Assembly: GCA_017525245.1 (NCBI GenBank)
Contig: JAFXTE010000085.1
Location: 1 to 53,792 of the forward strand
Length of the DNA: 53,792 nt
Reading direction: 5' to 3'
From: Bacteroidales bacterium
GTDB lineage: Bacteria; Bacteroidota; Bacteroidia; Bacteroidales; WCHB1-69
Shown: positions 1,293 to 37,677 of the stretch, piece after piece
How the letters are laid out: each line of letters begins with the position of its first letter
Numbering within the stretch: the first letter of the stretch is position 1
Made by a program: the position numbers and the translations under genes
The notes under the pieces: generated by a model
What the model was told of the DNA's origin: nothing
The model's input: only the letters and a program-made list of their open reading frames with translations
The model's database searches: none

Positions 1293-1327
1293 TAGCTATT
1301 GGCTGTTGGCTATTAGCTGTTGGCTTT
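1293..1327. repeat. Heptamer tandem tract, GCTRTTR family
   Basis: Five in-register 7-mers (TAGCTAT, TGGCTGT, TGGCTAT, TAGCTGT, TGGCTTT) lie between the recO stop and the tatA start, inside the presumed tatA leader. The unit is the reverse complement of the AACAGCY array near feoB. Related, less regular words (GTTGCC, TTTTGCC) follow to about 1359. Confidence 0.8.
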
Positions 1328-1372
1328 TCTGTTGCCTGATAACAATTGCCTTTTGCCTTAAAAAATTGGGTA

Positions 1373-1380
1373 CAAAAATA
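1373..1380 (-). promoter_or_regulatory. Bacteroidetes -7 box for tatAC
   Basis: The minus strand reads TATTTTTG, matching TAnnTTTG. It predicts a start near 1366 and a leader of about 87 nt containing the heptamer tract. No convincing -33 element was seen. Confidence 0.5.
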
Positions 1381-1424
1381 TATTTTTTTTTAACTGATGA
1401 CTATAAAAAACCGCTATTGCGCAA

Positions 1425-2138
1425 TCAGTGCAGCACAGAAGCGAGGATTTCCAAAGAGTCGATTTTGTGAATTTGTTCGTTGTGCATCTGGAGATAGGCA
1501 ACCAACTGTTTCAACAAAGCGGCACGCAGCCCTCTCTCTGCAGGAACAGGCTTTTCCTCACTTAACAACCGATGCAAATAGGTGCTTTCGTTCCCGTTCA
1601 TAATGCCGGCATCTTCCACATAATACGACTGAAAACGACATTCCTGCATAGAGAAGAAGCTGTTTGTGGCGGAGTAATTGTCCTCCGGAAAATAACCCAT
1701 CACCTTGCACAGCCGCAGCAGGAAACGCAACGGTAGCTCCGCAAGATTGCCGGAAGCGTCATGCACCCCGTCTATTTCCTTACGCAGAAAATCAAACAGC
1801 ACCTCATCCTCTCCGGCATCCATCAACATCTTATACAGTATCTCGTTGTAAAACAGCAATATGGAGCTTTTTGCCGGATCGTAGAACAATGGTTTGGACG
1901 TTTGCCGAGGGGCGATGTCCTTCAGATACTTCAACGAACCCTTGCTATGGTCATCATACGAGATGTCCATCATCGCCAACGGTGTGAAATAGGAAGCGGC
2001 GAAACGGTTGTTCTTCCGGAATGCGCCTTTAACGATAAAAGACTGGTTCCCTTGCTGTTGTGTAAAGATTTTCACAATCAGCGAAGTATCCCCGTATTTG
2101 GTGGCATGCATCACTATCCCTGGCGTTGAAACAAGCAT
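1425..2138 (-). CDS. recO: DNA repair protein RecO
   Basis: A 237-residue protein of the RecO family, which loads RecA with RecR at single-stranded gaps and anneals SSB-coated strands. The N-terminal OB-fold begins PGIVMHATKYGDTSLIVKIFT, matching the G-I-V-L-x-x-x-x-Y-x-E/D-x-S-x-I pattern. Next come IVKGAFRKNN (the basic strand typical of RecO) and a helical C-terminal half with LPLRFLLRLCKVMGYFPE. No C-terminal zinc-finger cysteine set is visible, as in other Bacteroidetes RecO. It is the last gene of the rbfA-lolC/E-porZ-recO run, starting 15 bases after the porZ-like stop. Confidence 0.9.
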   Translation of the reverse strand: MLVSTPGIVMHATKYGDTSLIVKIFTQQQGNQSFIVKGAFRKNNRFAASYFTPLAMMDISYDDHSKGSLKYLKDIAPRQTSKPLFYDPAKSSILLFYNEILYKMLMDAGEDEVLFDFLRKEIDGVHDASGNLAELPLRFLLRLCKVMGYFPEDNYSATNSFFSMQECRFQSYYVEDAGIMNGNESTYLHRLLSEEKPVPAERGLRAALLKQLVAYLQMHNEQIHKIDSLEILASVLH

Positions 2139-2153
2139 CTTATCCTTTTACAA

Positions 2154-4502: not shown

Positions 4503-5746
4503 AATGCAGTATTACGATACAAATTTGATTTTTTCAAGTTATAAGCCGGAATAAAAGATGTCAACAAACTAATTACCAATATTGTAAGAAGTACTATGAG
4601 CAAGTCGGTCAATCTGATTTGCACCGGATAATAGGGTATGATGTAATGTGAACCGCTACCGCCCAGCTTGACAATATGGAACGTCTGCTGCAACAAGCAG
4701 ATCAAAGCTCCCAACACAGTACCCGCCAATCCGCCTAATGCAGAAGCCAACAGTCCCTCATAGACAAACACTCTTTGTATCAATGACTTGGATGCCCCCA
4801 TACTAAACAACACGGCAGTGTCTGTCTTCTTTTCCAAAATCAGCATTCCCAACGCCCCGATGATGTTGAAGGCCGCCAAGACTAAAATGAACACCAGAAT
4901 CAGGTAAATGACGAACTTCTCCGACTTCATGGTTTTATACAGCGATTCCTCCTGCTCGTAAACATTTTTCAGCCGATACTTGTCACCAATCACGGCCATG
5001 ATTCTGGCACGGCATCTTTCCGCGTTAACCCCTTCCTTCAGTTGAATCTCAATGGATGTCACCTCGCCTTCGTAATTCATCAGTTCGCGAACGAACTCAA
5101 TCGGACAAAAAATGTAGTTCTCGTCATAATTGGTATTCGTACACAACACCCCGTTGGGTATCAGATAGCGTGTGTTAAACGCATCGGCGGCATTGGAGAA
5201 ATTCTTCTTCGTTCTTTTGGGATAATACAATTTAACCAAATTGTAGCTTAACAGATTGATTTCCAGCATACCGGCCGCTCCTGTCCCAAAAACGGCACAA
5301 GGTTCCTGAATCTTCCATAAGGCCGTGTCACCGTCAATCAGCATTTTATCGAAATGATTGTCTCTGAAATAGTTAGCAGGAACTCCTTTGAGATACAGGA
5401 GTTCCTGACGGTCATCGTAGTTCGCCAGCGAGAGGTCGCACACAATCTCGTTGACCGCCTTCACTTCCGGAATTTCCAGTAGCTGGCGGGTAGGAAAACT
5501 ATCCACGGAGAACGACTTGCCCTCGCGTAACGTAACCTCGTAGTCTGCATGCAGTGCATTGAACCAGCCGCCGATGATGTCGCTCATGCCATTGAACACC
5601 GACAGCACAACGACCAACGCGGCAGTACTCACCATGATGCCAATCATGGAGATTCCCGATATGACGTTGATAATATTGTGTTCTTTTTTGGAAAAAAGAT
5701 AACGCCACGCCAGGAAAAAGGCTGTTTTATGCGCTTTCGAAGCCAC
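4499..5746 (-). CDS. LolC/LolE-type ABC transporter permease
   Basis: A 415-residue FtsX/MacB-fold permease. One membrane helix follows the cytoplasmic N-terminus (VISGISMIGIMVSTAALVVVLSVFNGM). A periplasmic domain of about 230 residues precedes three C-terminal helices (around 280-305, 325-350 and 380-400) and the typical ILEKKTDTAVLFSMGAS loop. This is the layout of LolC/LolE, which extracts lipoproteins from the inner membrane for transfer to the outer membrane with the LolD ATPase. No ATPase gene is adjacent. The start is GTG at 5746, whose first base is the last base of the rbfA stop TAG. The 3' end overlaps the porZ-like start by 4 bases. Confidence 0.85.
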   Translation of the reverse strand: MASKAHKTAFFLAWRYLFSKKEHNIINVISGISMIGIMVSTAALVVVLSVFNGMSDIIGGWFNALHADYEVTLREGKSFSVDSFPTRQLLEIPEVKAVNEIVCDLSLANYDDRQELLYLKGVPANYFRDNHFDKMLIDGDTALWKIQEPCAVFGTGAAGMLEINLLSYNLVKLYYPKRTKKNFSNAADAFNTRYLIPNGVLCTNTNYDENYIFCPIEFVRELMNYEGEVTSIEIQLKEGVNAERCRARIMAVIGDKYRLKNVYEQEESLYKTMKSEKFVIYLILVFILVLAAFNIIGALGMLILEKKTDTAVLFSMGASKSLIQRVFVYEGLLASALGGLAGTVLGALICLLQQTFHIVKLGGSGSHYIIPYYPVQIRLTDLLIVLLTILVISLLTSFIPAYNLKKSNLYRNTAL

Positions 5747-6116: not shown

Positions 6117-6151
6117 TGGCTTGTGGCTGTTAGCCGTTAGCGGTTGGTTTT
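6117..6151. repeat. Heptamer tract overlapping the mscS stop
   Basis: Five 7-mers (TGGCTTG, TGGCTGT, TAGCCGT, TAGCGGT, TGGTTTT) of the GCTRTTR family. The mscS stop codon (6130-6132) and its last residues T-A-N-G are encoded inside the tract. Confidence 0.75.
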
Positions 6152-6996
6152 TCTTCATTCTTGATATGCACATCCATTTGATTGAACGGAATCTCCAGTC
6201 CCTCTTTACGGAATGCGTTGTAAATACCTTCGTTGAGTGAATAGAGAGTGGTCCAATAATTTTCGGGAAGGGTCCAAGCGTAGAGGCGCATATTGAGGGA
6301 GCTGTCCCCGAAATTCTCCAATGTGGCAAACGGTGCTTTGGGCTCGTTCAGCACCAACGGGTTCTCGGCGGCGACACGCAGCATCACTTCCTTGGCCTTC
6401 TCCACCGACATCCCGTATGCCAGCCCTACGTCTATGGCCACACGCCGTTGCGGCAGGTTGAAATGGTTGACAAGGGACTTGGTGGCTAATTCTGTATTCG
6501 GCACAATGATTTTGCGGGCGTCATACGTGCGCAACGTCGTGTTGAAAATCTGGATACTATCCACGAAGCCCGCATACGAACCCTGTTCTATGTAGTCGCC
6601 AACCCTGAACGGCTTGAGCAACAGAATGATGACTCCGCCAGCGAAATTCTGCAAGGTCCCTTGCAGCCCCATGCCGATGGCCACGCCTGCCGCACCCAAA
6701 ATGGCGATGAAGGAGGTCATCTGGATGCCCATGATGCCCATCGCGGTAATCACGAGCAGCACCTTCAGGAGGATGTCAATCAGCGAGTGCAAAAACTCTT
6801 GCAACGACGGATCCACCCTGTGCCGGTCGTAGGCGCGTTTCATCACCCGATTCAGCAAATTGATGAGTTTCCAGCCCACAAACAGCACGATAGCCGCCAC
6901 GATCAGCTTTGGCACATACTGGAAGATGATGTCATTTAAAAACTGCTTCGCACCGGAAGCAAAAGATTCCCAAGTGGTTACGTTTGTTTTTTCCAT
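6130..6996 (-). CDS. MscS-family mechanosensitive ion channel
   Basis: A 288-residue small-conductance channel, about the size of E. coli MscS (286). Membrane segments lie near residues 27-47 and 70-95. The pore-lining TM3 is rich in Gly/Ala (ILGAAGVAIGMGLQGTLQNFAGG), followed by the beta domain (FRVGDYIEQGSYAGFVDSI) and the IIVPNTELATKSLVN motif. It opens on membrane tension to release solutes during hypo-osmotic shock. The ATG sits 1 base after the DUF2490 stop, so it belongs to the VTC/DUF4956/DUF2490 operon. The C-terminal T-A-N-G and stop codon come from a heptamer tract, suggesting the tract arose at or spread into the 3' end of the gene. Confidence 0.93.
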   Translation of the reverse strand: MEKTNVTTWESFASGAKQFLNDIIFQYVPKLIVAAIVLFVGWKLINLLNRVMKRAYDRHRVDPSLQEFLHSLIDILLKVLLVITAMGIMGIQMTSFIAILGAAGVAIGMGLQGTLQNFAGGVIILLLKPFRVGDYIEQGSYAGFVDSIQIFNTTLRTYDARKIIVPNTELATKSLVNHFNLPQRRVAIDVGLAYGMSVEKAKEVMLRVAAENPLVLNEPKAPFATLENFGDSSLNMRLYAWTLPENYWTTLYSLNEGIYNAFRKEGLEIPFNQMDVHIKNEEKPTANG

Positions 6997-6997: not shown

Positions 6998-7684
6998 TTA
7001 TTTGAACGAATACGCTATACCGAAATATAGCACATTTTCAGGATTTTTAACTTGTATTTCATTATCGCTGCGAACAAAAAAATCTAACGAGTAGCGTTTG
7101 TTAATACTGTATTCCAAACCGACTATGGTACGCAGTTGATCAACGATATTGTCTCCGGGTTTGTAGAGCCGCCACCAAAACTCCTCCGAGCAGTGCAATT
7201 TCAAGCCGGTTTGTGGAATAGACCACGCAACCGACAATCTGTTACGCAGATAGGTTTTCGGATTGAACTTATATGATCCGTGACGTCTATCCCGGAAAGT
7301 GGTCTGCGCCATACACCGCCATCCGACTTTCCAATTCCCGAATTTCGGTGCAAGCGAGACGAATCCCTTGATTCTGTGACGGTTGTCAAACAACTGGTCC
7401 TCTCTATCGTGGTAGTTCAGGAAACTGTACTCAACCCCGACCTTCATCCGCTTCCGCCAGAAAGTGTAGTCTGTGCCAATCCCCAGCTTGGCGCGATTGT
7501 AGTGAGTGAAATTATAGTCGAAACGAACTTCCCCTTCCAAGTTGAAATGCCAACCTTTTAGGATTTTTAACTCATAATCAGCACCTATCACCCCGCCTGT
7601 CGTGAACGTCTGCGCACAAACACGACTGCACACACACAACAACACAAAGATAATCAAACACCTCTTGCTTAATTCATAATTCAT
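6998..7684 (-). CDS. DUF2490 outer-membrane beta-barrel-like protein
   Basis: A 228-residue protein with a signal peptide (hydrophobic RCLIIFVLLCVCSRVCAQ) and alternating amphipathic strands (WHFNLEGEVRFDYNF, KVGVEYSFLNY, YSLDFFVRSDNE) ending in an aromatic strand LYFGIAYSFK. This is the layout of the DUF2490 family and suits an outer-membrane barrel. Function is unknown. It follows the DUF4956 gene after 16 bases and precedes mscS by 1 base. Its first residues M-N-Y-E-L are encoded inside a heptamer tract, so the start codon is part of the repeat. Confidence 0.75.
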   Translation of the reverse strand: MNYELSKRCLIIFVLLCVCSRVCAQTFTTGGVIGADYELKILKGWHFNLEGEVRFDYNFTHYNRAKLGIGTDYTFWRKRMKVGVEYSFLNYHDREDQLFDNRHRIKGFVSLAPKFGNWKVGWRCMAQTTFRDRRHGSYKFNPKTYLRNRLSVAWSIPQTGLKLHCSEEFWWRLYKPGDNIVDQLRTIVGLEYSINKRYSLDFFVRSDNEIQVKNPENVLYFGIAYSFK

Positions 7685-7702
7685 AATGCGGAATGCAGAA
7701 TT
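7668..7702. repeat. Heptamer tract joining the DUF4956 stop and DUF2490 start
   Basis: Five 7-mers on the plus strand (CTTAATT, CATAATT, CATAATG, CGGAATG, CAGAATT) fill the 16-base gap and run into both genes. The DUF4956 stop (TAA) begins the tract on the minus strand and the DUF2490 ATG lies inside it. It shares the 12-mer AATTCTGCATTC (minus strand) with the tract at 19060. Confidence 0.75.
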
Positions 7703-8417
7703 AGAAGACGTTATCTCGTTGGATTTTGGTGAGCTGGTTAATCGTGTTTTCGGGTTTGTCGGAGGCGTAATAGATTTTCACGTATGCGATGTCCTTGAGG
7801 TAATCAATGTGCCCGACTTCAAGACGACGGATGTCGAGTCCGGTGCGGGATTTCAAATCCGCCATCAGCTCGTTCTCCCGGTCAGCATGAACAAGCGCGA
7901 CTTTCTCGTAAACAATGATTTTACACTCGAGATGCGTTTTACTGTGAATTGACTCGAACAGCCAAACAGCCAAAACGATCAGCAGGTTGGTGATGAACAA
8001 TTCAACGTAACTCACCGTCATGGCCAAACCATTGATAACCGAAATGCCGACAACCACAAACAGATAGGTCATCTCGCGGATTGGCACCGTTTCCGTCCGA
8101 TAGCGGATCATCCCGAAAATGGCAAACAGACCCAACGCGAATCCAATCTGCACTTTCACATTGTCCATCAGGAAAATCAAAAAGAAAATCGTAATGCTGA
8201 AGAGCATGAAAGTAAAGTAATAGTCGCGGCGCTTGCTTTTCCGATAATACAATAGCCCCACAATAAGCCAGCAAACCACCATGTTGAGGGCAAAACGGAG
8301 CAGCATCTGCCACAAACTCGGTCCATCAAACCAAGGGATGCCAAAAAGACCGGCTCCTTCTTCAGCAAACTCGCTTGCGATAGACGGGTCAAACAAGTCC
8401 AAATCACTCTGTATCAT
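7701..8417 (-). CDS. DUF4956 polytopic membrane protein
   Basis: A 238-residue protein with four to five membrane segments (roughly residues 40-60, 70-88, 90-105, 118-150). A conserved cytoplasmic-facing motif FAIFGMIRYRTETVPIREMTY precedes a soluble C-terminal domain with a VEKA-type beta-alpha pattern. This is the DUF4956 family. In many bacteria it is found next to VTC-domain genes, as here: its ATG overlaps the VTC-domain stop by 4 bases (ATGA). The biochemical role is not known. A partner in polyphosphate synthesis, transport or sensing is an inference from that pairing. Confidence 0.85.
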   Translation of the reverse strand: MIQSDLDLFDPSIASEFAEEGAGLFGIPWFDGPSLWQMLLRFALNMVVCWLIVGLLYYRKSKRRDYYFTFMLFSITIFFLIFLMDNVKVQIGFALGLFAIFGMIRYRTETVPIREMTYLFVVVGISVINGLAMTVSYVELFITNLLIVLAVWLFESIHSKTHLECKIIVYEKVALVHADRENELMADLKSRTGLDIRRLEVGHIDYLKDIAYVKIYYASDKPENTINQLTKIQRDNVF

Positions 8418-9661: not shown

Positions 9662-9698
9662 TTGGGGTTATCCGCACCTTCATCCTCTCGTCCTCGTC

Positions 9699-13161: not shown

Positions 13162-14697
13162 ATGAGCCGGAAACGCTTTCACCATACCTTTTACCTGCTC
13201 GGCACAATGGCGGTGGCGGCGGCGGTGCCGATGTCGCACTTCCTTATGGGGCTGGCACCCTTCTTGCTACTGCTCAACTGGATAGCTGAATGGAACTGGC
13301 GCGAGAAACAGATACGCCTTCGCAAAAACCGCCAAGGACTTTGGTTTGTCGCATTCTACCTCGTCTATGCCATCGGTCTCATCCGCGTAACCGACTGGAG
13401 CGCCGCTGGCGTTGAGATGCTCGCCAAACTGCCGCTGCTACTGTCCCCTTTAGTGATAATCACTTCCAAACCATTCAAAAACAGAGAATTACGAAACATT
13501 TTCATAGTCTTCATCGCAGCCACTTTATTCGGCTGTTGCTGGAACTTCACTTATGCCCGAACCCACATTCTTGACAATATCCGGCAGATGTCGCGCTTTA
13601 TCGACCACATCCGCTTCAGCCTCTGCGTTGCGCTTTCCATTGTCTTTTGCTTTCATCTTTTGCTCCATCCCTTAAACAGCAAAACGCCACTCCGATTTAT
13701 CTATCTTATAATCAGCTCGTTATTACTTTCATATCTTCTCTATGCCCAAACCCTATCCGGTATTATTATCCTACTGGCAATTACTTTATGCTACGTAATA
13801 TATCTTATTGAAAACCAAAAGAATAACAAGACAAAATGGGCTTTAGGAGGATTTTTGGTGGTGCTTTTGGCCGCCGCAACCCTCTATACAATATATATTA
13901 CCTACGACTATTTCCACGTGAAAGATGCCGCACCTGACCGGTCCGCGTTGACTGCTTCCGGCAATTCATACTCATTCGAAGAGGACCCGATGGTGGAAAA
14001 CGGACATTATATCGGACATTACGTTTGCAAGGAAGAGCTGCAAACCGCCTGGACAATGCGTTCCGACACGATGTTTGACGAACGGGTATCCGCTACACTG
14101 ATTCGCTATCTCAACTCGCTCGGAATGCGCAAAGACTCTGCGGCGGTGATGAGCCTCAGCGACCAAGACATCCGCAACATCGAGCACAAAACAGCCAATG
14201 TTTATTATGGGCACAAAGGTAACTTACGACGCGCACTCTATGAGACCTATTTCGGGCTAAGCCTTTACAAGAAATACGGAATCATCAACGAATCGTCCAT
14301 ACTGGAACGCATCGAGTTATGGCGTGCCTCCTGGCAAATTATCCGCGAACACTGGTTCCTCGGAGTGGGCGTCGGGCAACAACGCGCAGCCTTGGACCGG
14401 CAACTGGAAATTCAACACTCCCCCATCGCCGACAAAAGAATGAATCGCGGCAGCCACAACCAGTTCCTCACCTTTTGGATGGCTGCTGGCATCATTCCGA
14501 TGCTTTATTTCTGTTTCCTGCTCGTCTATCCATTCGCAGGTTTGAGAAGCCGTATCACATTCGTCTATTTCGCGCTCTTCCTGCTGTTGTTCCTCTCCAT
14601 GTTGGTCGAAGACACGCTCAGTTCCCAAGCCGGCCTCATGATGTTCGCCGTTTTCGTGCCTTTGCTACTGTTTAATAACAGTAGAGACGTTTCCTGA
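13162..14697 (+). CDS. O-antigen ligase (Wzy_C/WaaL-like) family protein
   Basis: A 511-residue inner-membrane protein with roughly ten membrane segments and a large periplasmic loop (about 265-425). The loop ends in RGSHNQFLTFWMAAGI, the H-N-x-F/Y-L signature of the Wzy_C/WaaL superfamily. A GVGVGQQRAAL motif (GxG) is also typical. Members transfer undecaprenyl-linked glycans to lipid A-core or polymerise O-units; in T9SS bacteria WaaL-type ligases also act in A-LPS synthesis. Which applies here cannot be told. It begins 3 bases after the S41 stop. Its last codons and stop (S-R-D-V-S-TGA) lie inside a 28-bp palindrome that recurs in intergenic DNA. Confidence 0.85.
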   Translation: MSRKRFHHTFYLLGTMAVAAAVPMSHFLMGLAPFLLLLNWIAEWNWREKQIRLRKNRQGLWFVAFYLVYAIGLIRVTDWSAAGVEMLAKLPLLLSPLVIITSKPFKNRELRNIFIVFIAATLFGCCWNFTYARTHILDNIRQMSRFIDHIRFSLCVALSIVFCFHLLLHPLNSKTPLRFIYLIISSLLLSYLLYAQTLSGIIILLAITLCYVIYLIENQKNNKTKWALGGFLVVLLAAATLYTIYITYDYFHVKDAAPDRSALTASGNSYSFEEDPMVENGHYIGHYVCKEELQTAWTMRSDTMFDERVSATLIRYLNSLGMRKDSAAVMSLSDQDIRNIEHKTANVYYGHKGNLRRALYETYFGLSLYKKYGIINESSILERIELWRASWQIIREHWFLGVGVGQQRAALDRQLEIQHSPIADKRMNRGSHNQFLTFWMAAGIIPMLYFCFLLVYPFAGLRSRITFVYFALFLLLFLSMLVEDTLSSQAGLMMFAVFVPLLLFNNSRDVS

Positions 14698-14708
14698 AAC
14701 GTCTCTAC
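14681..14708. repeat. Interspersed palindrome covering the ligase stop codon
   Basis: Two 13-base arms (GTAGAGACGTTTC and its complement) flank CT. The arms match the palindrome at 18087-18116 exactly. The upstream gene terminates inside it (TGA 14695-14697). It could also fold as a 3' hairpin in RNA. Confidence 0.85.
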
Positions 14709-18047: not shown

Positions 18048-18086
18048 CATAAATTATGAATATACACAGACAGATGAAATTGACGC

Positions 18087-18116
18087 TGTAGAGACGTTTC
18101 ATGAAACGTCTCTACA
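18087..18116. repeat. Perfect 30-bp interspersed palindrome
   Basis: A perfect inverted repeat with 15-base arms (TGTAGAGACGTTTCA and its complement). It is the same element as at 14681-14708. It lies upstream of the aminopeptidase promoter in a gap with no gene. Confidence 0.9.
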
Positions 18117-18142
18117 ATTTCAGAGGAAAGATACATTTTTTA

Positions 18143-18177
18143 GGCAACAGGCAATAGGCAATAGGCAACAGGCTAAG
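18143..18177. repeat. Heptamer tract GGCAAYA
   Basis: Five 7-mers (GGCAACA, GGCAATA, GGCAATA, GGCAACA, GGCTAAG). Reverse complements are TGTTGCC/TATTGCC, a variant of the GCTRTTR family near tatA. Intergenic. Confidence 0.8.
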
Positions 18178-18224
18178 GGAAGAGGGTCAAGGCCAAGGTA
18201 ACCCGCAAGAGCAGGGGGAAACCC

Positions 18225-18261
18225 TTTCATCGCCCATCATCGTCTCATCGCCTCATCGTCA
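18225..18261. repeat. Octamer tract covering the DUF5618-like stop
   Basis: 8-base units ending CATCG (TTTCATCG, then CATCATCG, TCTCATCG, CCTCATCG) run to the stop codon of the adjacent gene (18259-18261, TGA on the minus strand). The 16-mer CATCATCGTCTCATCG is shared with the tract at 37638. Confidence 0.7.
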
Positions 18262-18660
18262 CGCGCAGACTGTCGCAGGAAGTAACTTTTCGCAATAGTT
18301 TATGATTGCGTTGGCATATTCGAAACCCGAATCACAAGTCTTTTTGTTTTTTGTACCGTCATAACCCATGTGGAGGTGCATGGTCTCATAGCCATCCACA
18401 ATATAAGCCAGCAGCTTTTTGTCGCGTTTCCGAGCAGCATCCTTGTATTTGTCGATGTCAGGACGGCCTTTGCGCCTACTTATATCGAGCAACGCATCAA
18501 GCGCGATCAAACATCCGTTCCACAGCGTGTTTCCAGCCATCTTGACATATTTGCCGTCCGTATAACGTTTCATCTCGGGGTCGTACCCAGCCTTCTTGAT
18601 AACCTCCTCCGCATTGGCCACGTATCTGCGAGCTTCTTCTATCTGATTCTCTTTTTCCAT
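18259..18660 (-). CDS. DUF5618-like small cytosolic protein
   Basis: A 133-residue, mostly helical protein without signal peptide or membrane helix. N-terminus MEKENQIEEARRYVANAEEVIKKAG, then YTDGKYVKMAGNTLWNGCLIALDAL and DKYKDAARKRDKKLLAYIVDGYETMHLHMGYDGT. It resembles the DUF5618 family of Bacteroidetes; I recognise no catalytic motif. Starts at TTG 18687, ATG 18669 and ATG 18660 are in frame; the last begins the helical domain and is chosen tentatively. It has its own -7 box. The stop codon is the first triplet of an octamer tract. Confidence 0.65.
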   Translation of the reverse strand: MEKENQIEEARRYVANAEEVIKKAGYDPEMKRYTDGKYVKMAGNTLWNGCLIALDALLDISRRKGRPDIDKYKDAARKRDKKLLAYIVDGYETMHLHMGYDGTKNKKTCDSGFEYANAIINYCEKLLPATVCA

Positions 18661-18701
18661 ATCTAACATTTTTGTTTTCGTTAACAAGAAAATTCACGCC
18701 A

Positions 18702-18709
18702 CAAAAATA
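18702..18709 (-). promoter_or_regulatory. -7 box for the DUF5618-like gene
   Basis: The minus strand reads TATTTTTG; predicted transcript start is near 18695, leader about 26-36 nt depending on the start codon. Confidence 0.5.
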
Positions 18710-18793
18710 CACTTTTTTCAACACCATCAATCAAAAATAAAATATTTCTTACAAATAATTTCTTTACAATTAACTATTAATTTTATTTCTTAG

Positions 18794-19045
18794 CGAACCC
18801 CGGAACTGCACCATCGTCCGATGATGGATTCGCGCCCCCAATCCGGCCACAGACATGCAACCGCTAACGCGGTTGTCTTCGCGAACGCACCGGACAAGAA
18901 AACCGTCTCGAACAGCAATTGCACCATTCCGTTTGGCCTCCCTCCCCTACCGAAAACAACACGCATTTCCAGACCCCACTGCCATAACGAAAAAGCGAGA
19001 CAGAGACCGGCCAAACGGAAACTCAGACTCGCAAGGACAGGAATT
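18794..19045. other. GC-rich island in an otherwise gene-free 700-base gap
   Basis: The stretch between the DUF5618-like gene and the nrdD riboswitch holds a ~250-base block that is clearly richer in G+C than its A+T-rich flanks and contains small hairpins (for example AACCGC-TAACGC-GGTTG near 18858). Frames of 74-92 codons are open on both strands, but none has a recognisable domain, signal peptide or -7 box, and the plus-strand ones run into the adjacent heptamer tract. Possible explanations are a decayed gene, a repeat family or a non-coding RNA. Confidence 0.35.
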
Positions 19046-19059
19046 AACGAAACACAATC

Positions 19060-19094
19060 AATTCTTAATTCTGCATTCTTAATTCTTAATTACC
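19060..19094. repeat. Heptamer tract AATTCTK
   Basis: Five 7-mers (AATTCTT, AATTCTG, CATTCTT, AATTCTT, AATTACC) at the right edge of the GC-rich island. The reverse complement matches the DUF4956/DUF2490 junction tract. Confidence 0.8.
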
Positions 19095-19281
19095 ACTGAT
19101 GCGATAATTTCGGATACAGAATGAATCTGTCAAGCGATTTGTTTTATTGCTGTAAATTTAAATTATTTGACAAATGGAAAAACAACCCCAGCCCGTTTTT
19201 TTCGCATCTTTTTACTCACCTTATAATATTTAACCGCATAGGTACAATTTTTTTGATAAAGCGATGAGAAATTCATCGGTC

Positions 19282-19321
19282 TTTCATCGCCTCATCGACT
19301 CCTATACTCCTTAACTCCTCG
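19282..19321. repeat. Octamer tract TTTCATCG...ACTCCTNN
   Basis: Five 8-mers in register (TTTCATCG, CCTCATCG, ACTCCTAT, ACTCCTTA, ACTCCTCG), intergenic, upstream of the riboswitch promoter. It combines two different octamer words in one tract. Confidence 0.65.
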
Positions 19322-19411
19322 TTCCGTTACACAAACATCTGATTATCAGCATTGTTAATAACCTTGTTTATAAATAATCGTAAAGATATGAAAACCATCG
19401 GCGGGAAATAT

Positions 19412-19419
19412 TACTTTTG
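19412..19419 (+). promoter_or_regulatory. -7 box for the riboswitch-nrdDG transcript
   Basis: TACTTTTG followed by CGCG matches TAnnTTTG and places the transcript start at the 5' end of the cobalamin riboswitch. Confidence 0.6.
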
Positions 19420-19597
19420 CGCGGGTTCAGGTTCTGAACGGATTAATAGGGAACGCTGTGAGAATCAGCGGCTATACCCGTAGCTGTGAGTTCCACTTTG
19501 CGCTTTTTCCAATAAGTCACTGACAAAATCTTGTCGGGAAGGCGGAAAAAAGCGGGAACGAGCCAGAAGACCTGCCTGTAACCTGCGTTCGTGGCTT
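19420..19597 (+). promoter_or_regulatory. Cobalamin (B12) riboswitch upstream of nrdD
   Basis: Conserved B12-element pieces occur in order: TTCAGGTTCTGAACGG then AATAGGGAA (about 19446), the AATCAGCGGC-TATACCCGTAGCTGTGAG segment equivalent to the cobalamin-specific ATCCGG...GCAACTGT core, the B12-box AGTCACTGAC...TTGTCGGGAAGGCG (about 19515-19543), and AGCCAGAAGACCTGCCTGTAACC (19561-19583). Adenosyl- or related cobalamins bind such RNAs and usually repress the downstream gene. Downstream there is a CGGTG-ACT-CACCG hairpin at 19621-19633 and no clear U-run terminator, so control may be at translation. The first gene after it is nrdD, 90 bases away. Confidence 0.9.
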
Positions 19598-19686
19598 TCG
19601 GGACTAAGAGCAAACGATAGCGGTGACTCACCGACCATTGTCTTCCCTGAGCTGTTTTTATTAACAACCAAAACCTTAACCATTTT

Positions 19687-21777
19687 ATGGATCAACTGTA
19701 CATCATCAAACGAAACGGCAAACGAGAGCCTTTCTCGGCCGAAAAAATCAAAAACGCCATCGCCAAGGCATTCCTCTCCGTGAACAGCTTTGCCACACAG
19801 GAGGTGCTTATCAACGTCATGAGCCGTCTCAAAATCCATGACGGCATCTCCGTAGAGGAAATCCAAAACCAAGTGGAAACATCCCTTATGGCTGAACGTT
19901 ACTATGAGGTCGCCAAGGCTTACATCCTGTACAGACAACGCCATTACGAAGACCGGGAAGTCAAGGAGAAGTTGGACTTCCTCATCAACTATTGCAATGC
20001 CTCCAACGCCGCCACCGGTAGCAAGTACGATGCCAACGCCAATGTGGAGCGCAAGAACATCGCCACCCTCATCGGCGAACTCCCCAAATCGAACTTCATC
20101 CGCCTCAACCGCAGGCTGCTCTGCGACAAGATCAAAGATCTATACGGCAAGGAATTAGCCGACAAATACTTGTATCTTCTCAACAACCATTTCATCTACA
20201 AGAACGATGAGACCAGTATCGCCAACTACTGCGCCTCCATCACCATGTACCCGTGGCTTTTAGACGGCACACGCAGCATCGGTGGCAACGCCTCCGCACC
20301 CACAAACCTCAAGTCCTATTGCGGTGGCTTCATCAACATGGTCTTCATGGTTTCCAGTATGCTCAGCGGTGCCTGCGCCACCCCGGAATTCCTCATGTAC
20401 ATGGACTATTTCATCCGCAAGGAATACGGTGACGACTACTACCAAAACAGCGACAAAGTGGTGGATCTATCCGTGCGGCAACGCACCATCGACAAAATGA
20501 TTACCGACTGCTTTGAGCAAGTGGTCTATTCCATCAACCAACCCACCGGAGCACGTAACTTCCAGTCTGTGTTTTGGAACGTGGCCTACTATGACCGCTA
20601 CTATTTCGAGAGCCTCTTCGGTGAATTCCGATTCCCCGACGGCACTAAGCCGATTTGGGATTCGCTGAGCTGGCTGCAGAAGCGTTTCATGCGCTGGTTT
20701 AACCAAGAACGCACCCGTTCCGTGCTCACCTTCCCCGTTGAAACCATGGCTTTGCTCTCCAAAGACGGCGATATCATTGACACTGAATATGCCGATTTCA
20801 CTGCAGAGATGTACGCTGCCGGCCACTCTTTCTTCACCTACGTAAGCGACAACGCCGACTCCCTGAGCAGCTGCTGCCGCCTGCGCAACGAAATCCAGGA
20901 CAACGGCTTCAGCTACACCCTCGGTGCCGGTGGCGTTTCCACGGGTTCCAAGAGTGTGCTCACCATCAACATCAACCGCTGCATCCAGTACGAATGCCGT
21001 AACAACATCCCGCAATTCCAATTCATCGGTGAAGTCATCGACCTGATGCACAAAGTACAAATCGCATACAACGAAAACTTGAAATACCTGCAGTCCAAGG
21101 GAATGCTTCCGTTGTTTGATGCCGGTTACATTGCCATCAACCGCCAGTATCTCACTATCGGTGTGAACGGTCTGGTGGAAGCTGCTGAATTTCTCAGCAT
21201 TCCCATTGATGACAACCCTCAATACCAGAAATTCGTGGAGGACATACTCGGTCTGATTGAGAAATACAACCACCAATACAAGAGCAAAGAACTCCTCTTC
21301 AACTGTGAGATGATTCCCGCAGAAAACGTGGGCGTAAAACACGCCAAGTGGGATCGCGAAGACGGATACCGCGTGCCCCGCGACTGCTATAACAGCTATT
21401 TCTATCGCGTGGAAGACGATTCATTGAACCTGATCGACAAATTCCGGCTGCATGGCAAACGCTACATTGAGCACCTCACAGGTGGATCGGCGCTTCATGC
21501 CAACCTTGAGGAGCACCTCTCACAGGCTCAATATCGCCAATTGCTCCGCGTGGCCGCGCAGGAGGGCTGCAACTACTTCACCTTCAACATTCCTAACACC
21601 GTCTGTAACGACTGTGGACATATCGACAAACGTTATCTCCACGAATGTCCTGAATGCCACAGCAAAAACCTTGACTACCTCACCCGCGTCATCGGCTACA
21701 TGAAACGGGTCAGCAGCTTCTCACAAGCCCGCCAAGAGGAAGCAGGCCGCCGCCACTATGAACATTTTAATGGATAA
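19687..21777 (+). CDS. nrdD: Anaerobic (class III) ribonucleoside-triphosphate reductase
   Basis: A 696-residue class III reductase that makes deoxyribonucleotides from NTPs using a glycyl radical, in strict anaerobiosis. Residues 1-90 form an ATP-cone (YIIKRNGKREPFSAEKIKNAI). The catalytic barrel has NLKSYCGGF and SSCCRLRNEI (thiyl-radical cysteine region). The C-terminus carries the zinc site C640-x2-C643...C654-x2-C657 and the radical glycine G670 in RVIGYMKR. The zinc and glycine set indicates an intact enzyme. A B12 riboswitch precedes it, although the enzyme itself does not use B12. The stop codon TAA lies in a heptamer tract; the activase gene nrdG follows. Confidence 0.97.
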   Translation: MDQLYIIKRNGKREPFSAEKIKNAIAKAFLSVNSFATQEVLINVMSRLKIHDGISVEEIQNQVETSLMAERYYEVAKAYILYRQRHYEDREVKEKLDFLINYCNASNAATGSKYDANANVERKNIATLIGELPKSNFIRLNRRLLCDKIKDLYGKELADKYLYLLNNHFIYKNDETSIANYCASITMYPWLLDGTRSIGGNASAPTNLKSYCGGFINMVFMVSSMLSGACATPEFLMYMDYFIRKEYGDDYYQNSDKVVDLSVRQRTIDKMITDCFEQVVYSINQPTGARNFQSVFWNVAYYDRYYFESLFGEFRFPDGTKPIWDSLSWLQKRFMRWFNQERTRSVLTFPVETMALLSKDGDIIDTEYADFTAEMYAAGHSFFTYVSDNADSLSSCCRLRNEIQDNGFSYTLGAGGVSTGSKSVLTININRCIQYECRNNIPQFQFIGEVIDLMHKVQIAYNENLKYLQSKGMLPLFDAGYIAINRQYLTIGVNGLVEAAEFLSIPIDDNPQYQKFVEDILGLIEKYNHQYKSKELLFNCEMIPAENVGVKHAKWDREDGYRVPRDCYNSYFYRVEDDSLNLIDKFRLHGKRYIEHLTGGSALHANLEEHLSQAQYRQLLRVAAQEGCNYFTFNIPNTVCNDCGHIDKRYLHECPECHSKNLDYLTRVIGYMKRVSSFSQARQEEAGRRHYEHFNG

Positions 21778-21795
21778 TTGATAATGGATAATTAT
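21768..21795. repeat. Heptamer tract over the nrdD stop
   Basis: Four 7-mers (TAATGGA, TAATTGA, TAATGGA, TAATTAT). The last residues of NrdD (N-G) and its stop at 21775-21777 are inside. Confidence 0.75.
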
Positions 21796-21858: not shown

Positions 21859-21929
21859 CCTCCAACCTTCTAACCTTCCAACCAATATAACCCCTCAATA
21901 ACCAATAACCCATAACCAATAACCATTTT
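21859..21929. repeat. Mixed octamer and heptamer tracts leading into nrdG
   Basis: Octamer-like words CCTCCAA, CCTTCTAA, CCTTCCAA (21859-21882) are followed by 7-mers TCAATAA, CCAATAA, CCCATAA, CCAATAA and CCATTTT (21895-21929). The nrdG TTG start codon begins at 21928, at the end of the last unit. Confidence 0.7.
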
Positions 21930-26017: not shown

Positions 26018-26227
26018 GACAGCTAACAGTCAACAGCTAACAGCTAACAGCCAACAGCTAACAGCCAACAGCTAACAGCTAACAGCCAACAGCCAACAGC
26101 CAACAGCCAACAGCCAACAGCTAACAGCCAACAGCTAACAGCCAACAGCTAACAGCCAACAGCTAACAGCCAACAGCTAACAGCCAACAGCTAACAGCCA
26201 ACAGCTAACAGCTAACAACCAACAGCG
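26018..26227. repeat. Thirty-unit AACAGCY heptamer array
   Basis: Thirty 7-base units in perfect register, nearly all AACAGCT or AACAGCC. T and C alternate over long stretches, giving a 14-base super-period. Single-base variants occur at the ends (GACAGCT, AACAGTC, AACAACC, AACAGCG). No spacers exist, so it is not a CRISPR. The right end encodes the C-terminus and stop of the FeoAB gene (TAG at 26212-26214 on the minus strand). Confidence 0.95.
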
Positions 26228-34071: not shown

Positions 34072-34099
34072 TTAGAGACGCAAAATTTTGCGTCTCTAA
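34072..34099. repeat. 28-bp perfect palindrome TTAGAGACGCAAAA family
   Basis: Perfect inverted repeat with 14-base arms. It shares the outer AGAGACG with the palindromes at 14681 and 18087 but has a different centre (CAAAATTTTG). It lies just after the activase stop. Confidence 0.85.
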
Positions 34100-34109
34100 A
34101 TGTATAAAC

Positions 34110-34141
34110 AAAACGGAATCGTAAAACAACGACTCCGTTTT
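34110..34141. terminator. Bidirectional hairpin between converging genes
   Basis: AAAACGGAATCGT pairs with ACGACTCCGTTTT (one G-U type mismatch) around a short AAAACA loop, with flanking A/T runs. Confidence 0.75.
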
Positions 34142-34161
34142 GCGTACAATATTCACTAAAA

Positions 34162-37017
34162 CTACCTTATGATGGTAAGCGAACCATTATAGGTGACGGT
34201 CTTCGCTTTTCCTTTATATTGGAAAGAGTAATAATACACACCATCCGAGAGACCGGAACCATCGAACATCATATTGCCAGGATAAATTGTGCCATCCTTG
34301 GCGTATGTGTCGTAATTCTTTGCATCATAGACTTTGTTACCCCAACGATCATGGATGAGCAGACGATTGTTTCTGTAGCCATCAGGATCCTCCACGTTGA
34401 TATTGGTGTTCAAGTTCTCAATAGCGAACACATCGTTGATACCGTCACCGTTAGGCGTGATTACATTGGGGAAGATAAGATCCTGTTCTATAACCACCGT
34501 ATGAGTGATTTCGCTTGAGCAGCCCGAGTTGCTCTCCACATGAAGGGTGACGTTGAAATCGCCCCAAGTGTTGTAGGTATGCGGATCATCGAAATGAGTG
34601 GAATCAATGGTACCGTCACCGAAATCCCAGTAGAAGCTACCTTGGTCACTCATCACAATGGATGGATCGGAGTAATTGATGAAATTGACCACACCACCGT
34701 TTTCGCTCAACATGGAGATTGCGGGATCAGCCTCGAACTCGGCGATGGGCTGCGGATTCACCGTGATGTAGTTATACATCGTGATGGAATCCCGACAGCC
34801 ATCCGGCGTGACAACCTTTACCGCCACGGAATAGACACCTGGGTCTTTCAACTGGAACGTGGGAGATTCCAACGTTGAGCTGTAGGCCACATTCATATTG
34901 CCGAAATCATCAAAAGTAAGGATATACCACTCATACGAGCTGCCTGCAGGAGTGGAGTTATTTTCAATACGAAGGTTCAACGGGGCGCAACCAGACAGCT
35001 CAGGAAGCTCAAAATTGAATATGGGTTTCTCGAACATGTCAAGATGGATGGTATCACTGCCCTCGCAAGTCAATCCTGACTCGCTTGTCGTGGCTATATG
35101 CACGAAATAGTCACCGGCTGTCAAAGCTTCAATTGTTCTTGTATCATCACCAGTATTCCAGTGATAAGCTGTAGTTTGTCCTTCTGCACCATCCTGATTG
35201 TAATGGGGATCCAATATGGTTACATCACCGTAGCAAATGTTGAAATCCGGACCGAGATCGGGTTCAGGATGACCTACAACTTCCATGTGATTGACCGTGT
35301 CATATATGCAGCCCAGTTCATCCTGCACATAAATCGTGTATTCGATTTGACCGGCGGAATCCGGGATAACGGTGGGGCCGTTGGCACCAGGGCCTACCAC
35401 CCATGCACTATCAACCAGCACTTGGTATGACCAATCTTGCGGCAGCAAAGCGGGATCAAGGGCAATTTCCCATTCGGTCATCCAGCCGTTATCAATACTA
35501 TAGCCGTCCATGACCTCAAGGCTCCACGTACCGTTCATCGGGCAACCAATGAGATTGGCGAAAGAGCCATCAGGATGATAAACATTTGTCATAGCAGCCA
35601 CATTTGTGGAATCCACAATAGAGTTACTGATTGAAGAAGTGTTATACACATAGTTCCCCGATGCATACTGGTAACCTTGGTTGGTAGCATTTGACCAGCA
35701 ATAATTCCAAGGGGTACCCATAGCATTATGAGAATCATTGGGGTCACATTTATTGCTTGCCCCATCATCATCGATAACAATTCCAAAATGGGCACCTCCT
35801 GAACCTGAACCATTCCATCCCCACTCAGATGCTGGAATCTGGCTGGAACAACTGGAAGAACCACCACTCATCTTTTTCAAGATAGAAACATATTGTTGGT
35901 TCGGGCAAGTTAATCTAATCCAAATGTCGCCGATGAAGGAGTGCTCAATTTTGACTCGAACAAACAGAATATCATTGGCAGACTGGATGGTTGAGGCGGG
36001 AGAGAAGCTGGTGAAGGTCACCGGAGAAATATATGAGCATGACGGCGGGTTGCCACAAGGCTGTCCATCGGGCAAGAAGATGGTGTCCGTCACTGACAAA
36101 GCAGTAGCCTGTTCGCTACCCACAGTATCAACTTGCAGAGCAGAAAGAAAGTCATAACCCACCGTAAGTTCCACTTCACTTCCGGAACAGACAGAAGGGA
36201 AGTCGAGCACCTCGCGAATCGGATTGGAAGAAGTACGCACACGGAATGTATAAGGGATATAAGACTCACAGCCCGCACTGTCTGAGATACTGATGGCCAC
36301 ATCGTAACCACGGCCTTCCGGGAATTGATAGTCAATTGCATTACCGCCCAACGAATCAATCACTTCCCAACTCATGTCCCAATGGAACGTACAGGTGGCG
36401 TCATCCTGATGATAACTGTAGTCATTGTCCAGATATTCACCGCGCGCCACAAGATGGATGACATCATACGGGCACACATCCAAATACAGGTAACCATCAT
36501 CCTCCAGATGAGGGATTTTACTGGAAGCCGTTGTATCTATCGCCACGTTTATACGCTGGCACGGACGCACACAGTCTGTAGTGATGGCAAAACCGGCGCC
36601 TTCAGCAGAAGCGTCTGTCTTAAAGCGGATAGTCAAACATCCGGAAGTGTTATATACCGTAGCGGCATACGACAATGTGGGTGATGTAATGGAGTCTGTG
36701 ATGCAGTTTGTCAAAGCCACCAACAGAGGGTCGTTGATTGAGGAACCGTCGTAAATGAACAGCGTATCCGAACAATCAACATCAAACGACGCCAGATCCA
36801 AATTCACACGCACGGAGTGATTATTCGCGTCATTGGAACAGATGGTGACATAGTTGTCCATATTGGAACTGTAGTTTCCATTCAGACCACCGTTGTCATA
36901 GACTGACACGGAGCAACCTGTCACAGAAGTCTGCGTGCTCACACCCAAGGTGATCACTTGGGCATTCATGGCAAACACACCACACAATAAAGCAAAGAGA
37001 GATAATATCTTTTTCAT
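34162..37017 (-). CDS. T9SS cargo with CUB-like, P-domain, PKD and CHU_C domains
   Basis: A 951-residue protein. Signal peptide (ILSLFALLCGVFAMNAQ). A CUB-like domain at about 20-150 (CSDTLFIYDGSS...LSYAATVYNTSGCLTIRF). A proprotein-convertase P-domain at about 335-525 (ILFVRVKIEHSFIGDIWIRLTCPN ... NGTWSLEVMDGYSIDNGWMTEWEI). PKD-like beta-sandwiches at about 690-840, with FYWDFGDGTIDSTHFDDPHTY. A C-terminal gliding-motility/type B sorting domain from about 845 (LIFPNVITPNGDGINDVFAIEN ... LIHDRWGNKVYD). No catalytic protease domain is seen, so a binding or scaffold role at the surface is more likely than proteolysis. It follows a small secreted protein gene by 15 bases. Confidence 0.87.
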   Translation of the reverse strand: MKKILSLFALLCGVFAMNAQVITLGVSTQTSVTGCSVSVYDNGGLNGNYSSNMDNYVTICSNDANNHSVRVNLDLASFDVDCSDTLFIYDGSSINDPLLVALTNCITDSITSPTLSYAATVYNTSGCLTIRFKTDASAEGAGFAITTDCVRPCQRINVAIDTTASSKIPHLEDDGYLYLDVCPYDVIHLVARGEYLDNDYSYHQDDATCTFHWDMSWEVIDSLGGNAIDYQFPEGRGYDVAISISDSAGCESYIPYTFRVRTSSNPIREVLDFPSVCSGSEVELTVGYDFLSALQVDTVGSEQATALSVTDTIFLPDGQPCGNPPSCSYISPVTFTSFSPASTIQSANDILFVRVKIEHSFIGDIWIRLTCPNQQYVSILKKMSGGSSSCSSQIPASEWGWNGSGSGGAHFGIVIDDDGASNKCDPNDSHNAMGTPWNYCWSNATNQGYQYASGNYVYNTSSISNSIVDSTNVAAMTNVYHPDGSFANLIGCPMNGTWSLEVMDGYSIDNGWMTEWEIALDPALLPQDWSYQVLVDSAWVVGPGANGPTVIPDSAGQIEYTIYVQDELGCIYDTVNHMEVVGHPEPDLGPDFNICYGDVTILDPHYNQDGAEGQTTAYHWNTGDDTRTIEALTAGDYFVHIATTSESGLTCEGSDTIHLDMFEKPIFNFELPELSGCAPLNLRIENNSTPAGSSYEWYILTFDDFGNMNVAYSSTLESPTFQLKDPGVYSVAVKVVTPDGCRDSITMYNYITVNPQPIAEFEADPAISMLSENGGVVNFINYSDPSIVMSDQGSFYWDFGDGTIDSTHFDDPHTYNTWGDFNVTLHVESNSGCSSEITHTVVIEQDLIFPNVITPNGDGINDVFAIENLNTNINVEDPDGYRNNRLLIHDRWGNKVYDAKNYDTYAKDGTIYPGNMMFDGSGLSDGVYYYSFQYKGKAKTVTYNGSLTIIR

Positions 37018-37032
37018 TTTTCCCGAATTTTC

Positions 37033-37485
37033 TTAAAAACCATACTGATGTAAATGCGCATTCAGTCGCTCCTCCCAAGTCACCTTGGGTAGCACGACCA
37101 CATAATAACCACTGCGGCGCAGTTTGAAGAGGTTGTAGCGGTAGTCATCTTGCGGGAGATTCCACTTGTAGGGGTTCACATAGCCCTTTTGGATAATATC
37201 TTCCTCCAAATAGGTCATACCCTTAGGCAGATATTGCTCCAACGTACCCATTTGCTGGAAGTTGCCATCCCAAAGTTTGCTTATCACTGTGGCGTAATTA
37301 AACATCGTGTAATTCACGCGAACCAGTTCAGCCGGATTGTTCGCCCGCAAATCCTCCACTTTGGCGGCCGTGAGTTCCTCCGACAACTGGGGAGTCACAT
37401 AGTACTCGCTCATTGGAATATGCTGCTGAGCGAAACTGATGAGCATCGCACCCATCATCACCATTGTTAATACTGTCTTTTTCAT
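37033..37485 (-). CDS. Small secreted hypothetical protein
   Basis: A 150-residue protein with signal peptide (MKKTVLTMVMMGAMLISFAQ). The mature part is helical with VNYTMFNYATVISKLWDG and LPQDDYRYNLFKLRRSGYYVVVLP. No family recognised. ATG 37485 is chosen over the frame opening at 37518 because the -7 box occupies 37518-37525. It is the first gene of a two-gene transcript with the CHU_C cargo, so it may be a chaperone or partner of it; that is inference. Confidence 0.6.
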   Translation of the reverse strand: MKKTVLTMVMMGAMLISFAQQHIPMSEYYVTPQLSEELTAAKVEDLRANNPAELVRVNYTMFNYATVISKLWDGNFQQMGTLEQYLPKGMTYLEEDIIQKGYVNPYKWNLPQDDYRYNLFKLRRSGYYVVVLPKVTWEERLNAHLHQYGF

Positions 37486-37517
37486 ATTTGAATATTTTAA
37501 TACTTTACTAATTATCA

Positions 37518-37525
37518 CAAATATA
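37518..37525 (-). promoter_or_regulatory. -7 box for the 37485-34162 operon
   Basis: The minus strand reads TATATTTG; predicted leader is about 26 nt. Confidence 0.55.
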
Positions 37526-37637
37526 TCTTCCCTTTCGTTTTTCTCTGTCGCACCAACCCCTCATTTTGTTACATCTATTTTCACTTTTTTTGTTATATTA
37601 AGATATTTATCTGTTCGTCAATATTTTACGATTAAAT

Positions 37638-37677
37638 TTTCATCGTTTCATCGCATCATCGTCTCATCGTCATACAA
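37638..37677. repeat. Octamer tract covering the NamZ-like stop
   Basis: Units TTTCATCG, TTTCATCG, CATCATCG, TCTCATCG, TCATACAA. The last seven residues of the adjacent protein (D-D-E-T-M-M-R) and its stop TGA (37648-37650) are encoded inside. Confidence 0.75.

Follow-up and report, generated by a model that had tools for sequence, protein, structure and literature searches.

Tandem heptamer and octamer arrays at Bacteroidales gene boundaries are probably arms and remnants of small PF05635 elements

Why does a bacterial contig carry, at one gene boundary after another, short tandem arrays whose words are unrelated and whose unit length stays at 7 or 8 nt? The question is raised by contig JAFXTE010000085.1 of a Bacteroidales bacterium (GenBank assembly GCA_017525245.1), analyzed here over positions 1 to 53,792, a stretch that we call the window. 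A sequence-only reading of this DNA had listed the tracts and argued, from the diversity of their words, for a length-constrained process such as polymerase slippage rather than for the spread of one element. We consider it quite probable that the arrays are intact or residual arms of small elements, each about 530 bp long, built on PF05635 (TIGR02436), the four-helix-bundle family of S23 or 23S rRNA intervening-sequence proteins (IVPs). Such an element would consist of one PF05635 gene and two inverted arms that enclose it, each a tandem run of words of 7 nt or, less commonly, 8 nt, and the arrays of the window would be derivatives, lacking the open reading frame (ORF) or reduced to one arm, of a mobile element that resembles a 23S rRNA intervening sequence (IVS) and has terminal inverted repeats (TIRs) as its arms. 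The NrdD protein of the window is closest to those of ruminant Bacteroidales/Bacteroidetes metagenome-assembled genomes, with 97-98% identity to RGIG10164, RGIG1517, and RUG13189. Below, G000 is the present genome, other G numbers are other genomes, and L numbers are individual loci or elements.

Tandem Repeats Finder (TRF), run on the window with a score limit of 30, lists most of the tracts named earlier (Table 1). The tract at 6117 has only about 3.5 imperfect units (GGCTTGT GGCTGTT AGCCGTT AGC) and is not in the TRF list at that limit, and the TRF output for the window contains no tract at 9677. Our array survey covered the window and 20 further stretches, 363 kb of 3.68 Mb or about 10% of the genome (one stretch, L028, was picked because an array is present in it), with 60.9 kb intergenic and 301.7 kb coding according to genes called by our own script. 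Tracts were counted at a score of at least 10, with dinucleotide shuffles as the null. Lag-7 tracts number 44 in intergenic DNA against 0.2 in shuffles, and 4 against 0.67 in coding DNA, of which there is five times more. Further intergenic tracts occur at lag 14 (16 against 0.15), lag 6 (7 against 0.2), lag 8 (5 against 0.4), and lag 21 (5 against 0.2), and the remaining lags from 4 to 16 gave 0 to 3 each. These counts rule out chance and coding periodicity as sources of the arrays. They also bear out, in this 10% sample and against shuffled controls, the claim of an excess of 7- and 8-mer arrays at gene boundaries, with tracts far from equally frequent in coding DNA.

The observation that many different words share a conserved unit length stands as well. 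Recurrent heptamers in the sample are AGCYAAY, AGGCAAY, CCAATAA, AATTCAT, AAGTCTY, ACTRCTA, and TTGAAAC, recurrent octamers are TTTCATCG and AACCTTCT, and the array at L029:7830 drifts from CATTCAT through CATTAAC to CCAATAA along its length. The lengths of heptamer-class tracts peak at 28-36 nt. Most arrays are intergenic, as had been claimed, but four in the window contain the stop codon of a host gene (mscS-like, 6130-6132; nrdD, 21775-21777; feoB, 26212-26214; namZ, 37648-37650).

A PF05635 match is present in 298 of 395 genomes of the phylum. Our genome has 12 matches, which correspond to 11 genes, L151 and L153 being parts of a single broken gene, and nine of the 11 lie between inverted arrays of one word, the word differing from gene to gene. 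For the genus we used 98 of 259 PF05635 matches from 40 genomes including our own, mainly from the upper part of the list and without some matches near contig ends; 97 of these elements were usable in a flank test. The test takes the best local score of the left flank against the reverse complement of the right flank, and an element passes if it exceeds the 99th percentile of shuffles. Inverted flanks passed in 96/97 elements, direct flanks in 6/97, and mismatched pairs in 9.9% of 1,500. The median score is 26 for inverted and 10 for direct flanks, and in 2,000 permutations of the right flanks the median never exceeded 12. Control genes of the sample passed the same test in 5 of 244 cases. Inverted flanks passed in 22/27 elements order-wide (27 used of 28) and in 18/29 phylum-wide, where direct flanks passed in 3/29. 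Both arms are tandem in 95 of the 98 genus elements, with periods of 7, 14, or 21 in 139 of 196 arms, 8 or 16 in 29, and 6 or 12 in 11. The median arm length is 35 nt (quartiles 29 and 54), the median element length is 528 bp, and left arms contain 28% G and 7.5% C. Among the 98 elements, in-frame stops occur in L150 and L151 only.

Complementary ends around an S23 gene are the plan of the 23S rRNA IVS, and the arms could therefore be kept as an RNA stem, as in the IVS, with RNase III cutting the insert from transcripts. The shared architecture, an S23 ORF between complementary ends (PMC4990558), agrees with this, as does the finding that 76 of 86 elements with both neighbors called lie between co-directional genes, the S23 gene having the same sense in 51 and the opposed sense in 25. 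However, the mismatches between arms show no excess of G-U-compatible over A-C-type changes (168 against 196 in the genus and 31 against 43 in the order), and tandem words with one-sided G content are unnecessary for a stem. Given the lack of a G-U excess, we reject selection for an RNA stem as the main force on the arms, and we hold this explanation to be doubtful.

The word of an element goes with the lineage of its protein. In a set of 113 elements that have tandem arms on both sides and score 16 or more, a word is shared by 1-3% of pairs below a protein identity of 0.5, by 11% and then 19% up to 0.7, by 76% at 0.7-0.8, by 82% at 0.8-0.9, and by 100% at 0.9 or above, the pairs not being independent. 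Because many close pairs are one inherited site, same-site and different-site pairs were separated by their outer flanks. Different-site pairs share the word in 2 of 2 cases at 0.9 or above, 9 of 10 at 0.8-0.9, 21 of 32 at 0.7-0.8, and 23 of 117 at 0.6-0.7. Related lineages have related words, such as AGACTT, AGACGT, and GGACTGA or AGTGAAC and AGTGAAT. Word and protein are thus found together at unrelated sites, as in TIR transposons and miniature inverted-repeat transposable elements (MITEs). The diversity of words had been taken as an argument against the spread of an element; that argument is not supported, since each word belongs to a lineage of PF05635 elements at unrelated sites.

Empty and filled versions of orthologous sites, also characteristic of TIR elements and MITEs, were found at L150 and L147. 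The joined flanks of L150 (464 nt) match uninterrupted over 461-467 nt in G044, G045, G050, G051, and a second locus of our own genome, with no match in the other 35 genomes; at the two of these five loci whose junctions were viewed, only a few bases separate the stop codon from the start codon. For the L147 site, 30 loci were tried, of which 17 were viewed, 10 were reversed and not viewed, and 3 had no anchor. This site is filled in G000, G046, G033, G042, and G035, internally deleted in G012, and reduced to one arm in G007. Whole elements are present in L147, L319, L339, L341, and L345, and in L324 both arms are present but only the final codons of the S23 gene remain. A very short remnant is left in L323 and a single left arm in L337; L321 and L325 have arrays of other words, L343 has a near-empty gap, and L317, L320, L327, L329, L333, and L335 have gaps of 72-101 nt that contain GTAGAGACG-like hairpins, C-rich words such as CCCTAAA, or both.

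The gaps behind nrdD, between the pepC-like gene and nrdD, and behind feoB hold different words, other arrays, or none in congeners. Behind feoB, for example, our genome has 30 units of AGCYAAC, G043 has AGCCAAA x12 followed by mixed AGCYAAC units, L042 has GGTTATT, AGGCAAY, and others, and L122 and L123 have no array by eye. In the nrdD gap, L043 carries an S23/IVP-family ORF enclosed by AGGTAGT arrays in inverted orientation, and L045 carries a decayed remnant of such an ORF. A comparison of orthologous loci in close strains had been proposed at the outset; the feoB 3' array differs in word and unit number between congeners, the level at which the comparison was made.

Elements are placed tightly against stop codons. 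Where a co-directional stop precedes the left arm, the median spacing is 0 nt (70% within 10 nt, n=53), and where an opposing stop follows the right arm it is 2 nt (78% within 10 nt, n=27); start codons lie at median distances of 40 nt (n=33) and 14 nt (n=59). In the junction listing, as in the four cases of the window, the host stop codon is often inside the array. On the inward strand, stops in all three frames occur in 116 of 184 arms; 20 unit permutations averaged 88 and never exceeded 96, and the outward strand gave 76. The order-wide count is 19 of 37 against 14.6. As this excess is only modest, we reject three-frame stops as the main reason for a length of 7 or 8 and retain them as a side benefit: arrays may be tolerated at gene 3' ends because they are able to supply a stop codon. 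Both the placement at stop and start codons and the three-frame stops would suit regulatory or termination sites, each word serving a host RNA- or DNA-binding protein, and translational regulation was earlier proposed for TAACTGA arrays (PMC4679880). Yet orthologous gaps hold different words, a whole element, or nothing; in those examples, therefore, no regulatory site is conserved with the gene, and we regard this explanation as very unlikely.

All arrays of the window are gene-less, and most carry words of known elements. The 363-kb sample contains 85 gene-less arrays, 50 of which match an arm from our own genome or a congener at 15/15 positions (7 for reversed and 9 for unit-permuted controls); 27 match the nine elements of our own genome alone (2 reversed, 1 permuted). 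If arrays are element ends, the strand read inward from the gene edge is expected to be G-rich, and it mostly is. Gene-less arrays of our genome follow this polarity in 27/38 cases near stops and 10/12 near starts, and those of 16 relatives, with the L043 element excluded, in 23/30 and 17/19. In gaps with at least two arrays, the first is G-rich and the last C-rich in 26 of 35 and the reverse holds in 1 (L043 element included). Within the window, five of six arrays agree, the exception being 7670..7701, with 5 G and 4 C. The only PF05635 gene in the 363 kb is L150, with two in-frame stops; given this single gene, loss of gene or arm is observed at the L147 site and would be presumed elsewhere. 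We infer that most of the 85 arrays are MITE-like derivatives or single arms.

The sampled genomes that lack the gene family are nearly without arrays. Twenty Bacteroidales genomes without PF05635 yielded 2 lag-7-class and 1 lag-8-class intergenic tracts in 277 kb, and 20 with at least eight copies yielded 17 and 11 in 266 kb (lag-7 class, Mann-Whitney p=0.018 for 14 versus 14 stretches of at least 8 kb). This bears on polymerase slippage with a built-in 7-nt step, by which arrays would form in any tolerated DNA and PF05635 genes would settle between them. Unit number does vary between arrays, most arrays have no gene nearby, and PF05635-rich genomes are richer in tracts of other lags too; moreover, heptamers are described as the commonest long simple sequence repeat in most surveyed genomes, and a 7-nt polymerase contact has been proposed (Mrazek 2007, via PMC4679880). 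Slippage nevertheless leaves unexplained the identical inverted words on both sides of a gene, the words that accompany the protein at other sites, the G-rich inward polarity, and the scarcity of arrays where the family is missing. We consider it unlikely, and the earlier view of the arrays as free-standing slippage products does not hold, the same word standing inverted around PF05635 genes; slippage may set the number of units within arms.

Several observations weigh against the arrays being arms of PF05635 elements. For 35 of the 85 gene-less arrays, none of the sampled arms matches the word exactly. At 13/15 positions 76 of the 85 match, along with 65 reversed and 50 permuted controls; this level does not separate from the reversed control, and 15/15 was therefore used. 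No other PF05635 remnant was found in the 363 kb, and the surroundings of most gene-less arrays show no sign of the gene. Pairs of gene-less arrays within 600 bp in G000 are matched inverted in 3/20 and direct in 1/20 cases, too few to decide; for distant pairs the figures are 105/3,420 and 116/3,420, and the polarity of the arrays told more than this pairing. Tracts of other lags are also more frequent in PF05635-rich stretches (33 versus 15). L152 and L154, the two weakest PF05635 matches of our genome, have no arms, and arms weaken outside the genus: direct flanks also pass in 7/27 elements order-wide, and the search for tandem tracts came up empty for 13 of 56 arms order-wide and for 22 of 58 phylum-wide. 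The PF05635 samples are biased toward best-scoring genes, and some of their members are inherited copies of a single site. Word sharing at a protein identity of at least 0.9 mostly reflects inherited sites (36 of 38 pairs), and the overall correlation between word and protein is weak (rho 0.08, reached by 6 of 500 permutations) because the link fades below about 70% identity, so that the breakdown by identity band is more informative. A target-site duplication could not be fixed among 35 junctions, the arm ends being fuzzy, although TAA adjoins both ends in L150, L251, and L043. Finally, a scan of five proteins revealed no domain besides the four-helix bundle, and thus no catalytic transposase domain.

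The only models matched by these five proteins are those of four-helix bundles or Avd and some without a name. The NCBIfam model DivGenRetAVD matches four of them with E values of 1.6e-6 to 3.2e-4, at 21-28 bits against a cutoff of 80, such that Avd of diversity-generating retroelements is a distant relative of the family, with all matches far below its cutoff. The PDB relatives 2gsc (XCC0516) and 2rld have five chains each. We infer that arms and gene move together as one element and that each protein binds the words found in the arms around it. A natural reading would be one 7-nt word per subunit of a pentamer, given the five chains of 2gsc and 2rld and a median arm length of 35 nt; avidity would then preserve the tandem sites, with a unit number that slippage could change. 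We know of no catalytic activity for an S23/PF05635 protein, and strand transfer is therefore probably supplied by another enzyme in trans, the weakest step of the explanation. The XCC tags, including XCC0516, we take to belong to X. campestris ATCC 33913. Avd and 2gsc are reported to be homologous, and a paper in the reference list of that report describes 2gsc, from X. campestris, in its title as five four-helix bundles (PMC10053308).

Table 1. Tandem arrays of the window, with TRF starts and word matches to element arms.
Positions	Strand	Feature	TRF start	Word match
1295..1325	+	Array GCTRTTR, 4.4 units, inward (left-arm) type	1295	15/15, arm of element L145
6118..6141	+	Weak array GGCTTGT/GGCTGTT/AGCCGTT at 3' end of mscS-like gene (6130-6996, -), contains its stop
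7670..7701	.	Array TAATTCA, touches 3' end of gene 7701-8417 (-)	7670	15/15, congener arm L236
9636..9660	+	Array TATGACG, word of congener element L198	9636	15/15, L198; 12/15, own L144
16540..16567	.	Imperfect octamer tract ATCATCTT	16540
18142..18173	+	Array AGGCAAY, 4.6 units, upstream of pepC-like gene	18142	15/15, element L143
18227..18260	-	Octamer array TCATCGTC, touches 3' end of DUF5618 gene (18259-18687, -)	18227/18237	14/15, congener arm L177
19060..19091	.	Array AATTCTT, 4.6 units, between pepC-like gene and nrdD	19060	13/15, a level reached by many control words
19284..19319	-	Octamer tract TCATCGCC.../ACTCCTAA	19298	13/15 only
21768..21792	+	Array TAATGGA, contains nrdD stop, left-arm type	21768	15/15, element L151
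21857..21883	-	Octamer array AACCTTCT, gap downstream of nrdD	21857
21896..21925	-	Array CCAATAA (reverse complement TTATTGG), 4.3 units, right-arm type	21896	15/15, element L146
26014..26226	-	Array AGCYAAC, 30 units, feoB 3' end, contains feoB stop	26014	15/15, element L145
28749..28786	+	Array AGACTTT/GACTTAT, upstream of feoB	28749/28750	14/15, congener element L174
37638..37671	-	Octamer array TTTCATCG, contains stop of NamZ-like gene (37648-38883, -)	37638

The window has further features beside the arrays. The gap between the pepC-like gene and nrdD (18050-19686) is about 1.7 kb long, against about 0.56-0.58 kb in L038, L040, and L042, and its extra DNA includes the DUF5618 gene and several arrays. 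DUF5618 has eight matches in the genome (L184-L191), several of them near heptamer arrays, and was tried as a carrier gene. The eighth locus, L191, is cut by the contig end and was left out of the count; none of the seven testable genes lies between matched inverted arms, with inverted scores of 10-15 when longer flanks were used, and we reject it as a carrier. An Rfam scan of the window found only the cobalamin riboswitch RF00174 (108 bits, 19412-19594), directly upstream of nrdD, the class III ribonucleotide reductase gene. The palindrome GTAGAGACG...CGTCTCTAC, at 14681-14708 and 18088-18115, represents another type of short repeat found at gene ends; seven copies, five of them intergenic, occur in the 363-kb sample, and similar hairpins are found at array sites in several relatives.

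The family is not confined to Bacteroidota. A tblastn search found it on 31 plasmid records, mostly cyanobacterial, and 17 copies, 15 of them cyanobacterial, were examined; some are close kin of each other. Inverted flanks pass in 15/17 copies, with tandem tracts on both sides in 11/17, and for the cyanobacterial genes the counts are 13/15 and 9/15. The two copies that fail are those of Nostoc HK-01 and Calothrix PCC 7716. Direct flanks pass in 2/17, Pseudanabaena and Gemmatirosa, which pass inverted too. The words include AGGGAAC (two Nostoc), AAAAGGG (Geminocystis), AGGTGAC (Anabaena sp. 90), GTTTAAG (Riemerella), and an octamer (Gemmatirosa). In two Nostoc plasmid stretches of 50 kb each, L403 has 14 lag-7-class tracts in 11.2 kb outside listed genes and L404 has 2 in 8.5 kb, the PLSDB gene tables being incomplete; four of the L403 tracts look like G-rich/C-rich pairs 56-166 bp apart. 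In L389, L391, and L399 the S23-type gene lies between CRISPR-associated genes (cas6/cas4 twice, cas10/Cmr3-family once), which suggests insertion in cas operons in these three cyanobacterial plasmid copies.

Among the closest known systems is the IVS of 23S rRNA, which has an S23 ORF between complementary ends and is called a selfish element in the abstract of its description (PMC4990558). The genus elements share the complementary ends around one S23-family ORF, and the arrays of the window are ORF-less. Unlike the IVS, the elements lie between protein genes, with genes predicted on both sides by our own gene caller in 86 genus elements, and not in a 23S rRNA helix; Rfam found no rRNA in the window. 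They also differ in that their ends are tandem 7- or 8-mers of lineage-specific words, that gene-less copies abound, and that the arms show no G-U bias.

The sources consulted attribute heptamer repeats to slippage, to G-quadruplexes, or to regulation, without agreement on where they come from, and our searches of open-licence PMC full text showed no report linking PF05635 to heptamer arrays. A tie to a gene family would give these repeats an origin and predict which genomes have them. A wider proposal, for which we see the chances as evenly balanced, is that one unrecognized class of mobile element, in at least Bacteroidota and Cyanobacteria and once in Gemmatimonadota, whose only product is an Avd-like four-helix bundle (pentameric in solved relatives) able to read the tandem, lineage-specific 7-nt words of both ends, is the source of much bacterial heptamer and octamer repeat DNA, the arrays of other systems being its arms and relics. 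If so, the joint drift of word and protein would be a natural series of protein-DNA (or RNA) recognition codes, and the question of why seven would become a testable one of binding by an abundant, Avd-related protein family of unknown function.

Among those other systems, the short tandemly repeated repetitive sequences (STRRs) of cyanobacteria are intergenic tandem repeats of usually 7 bp that can form hairpins, as described in Nostoc (PMC2670836). The sequence-only reading had likened the present arrays to them, aptly, as both systems have intergenic tandem heptamers of several words; we found no description of STRRs as ends of PF05635 elements, whereas inverted flanks pass here for 13/15 cyanobacterial plasmid genes. 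X. campestris ATCC 33913 has 186 GGGAATC arrays, mostly of four units, with 70 close opposite-strand pairs (Rehm et al. 2015, PMC4692102), and these, like the GGGGA(C/T)T arrays of Nostoc PCC 7120, were read as G-quadruplexes (PMC4692102). As described there, these systems differ from the window in having one dominant word, with few inverted pairs in Nostoc PCC 7120. TAACTGA repeats occur sporadically across phyla in Beggiatoaceae, Cyanobacteria, and Bacteroidetes, in up to 43 copies (MacGregor 2015, PMC4679880). They resemble the window arrays as mostly intergenic heptamers beside start or stop codons; unlike here, they were read as translational regulatory sites, and the terms "S23" and "four helix" are absent from the text of PMC4679880. 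Lastly, the P6b stem-loops of Nostoc trnL introns are reported to be built on two alternative 7-nt motifs (PMC4476775) and resemble a gene-less version of an S23 element. We offer it as a prediction that the STRR, Xanthomonas, TAACTGA, and P6b repeats are arms of such elements.

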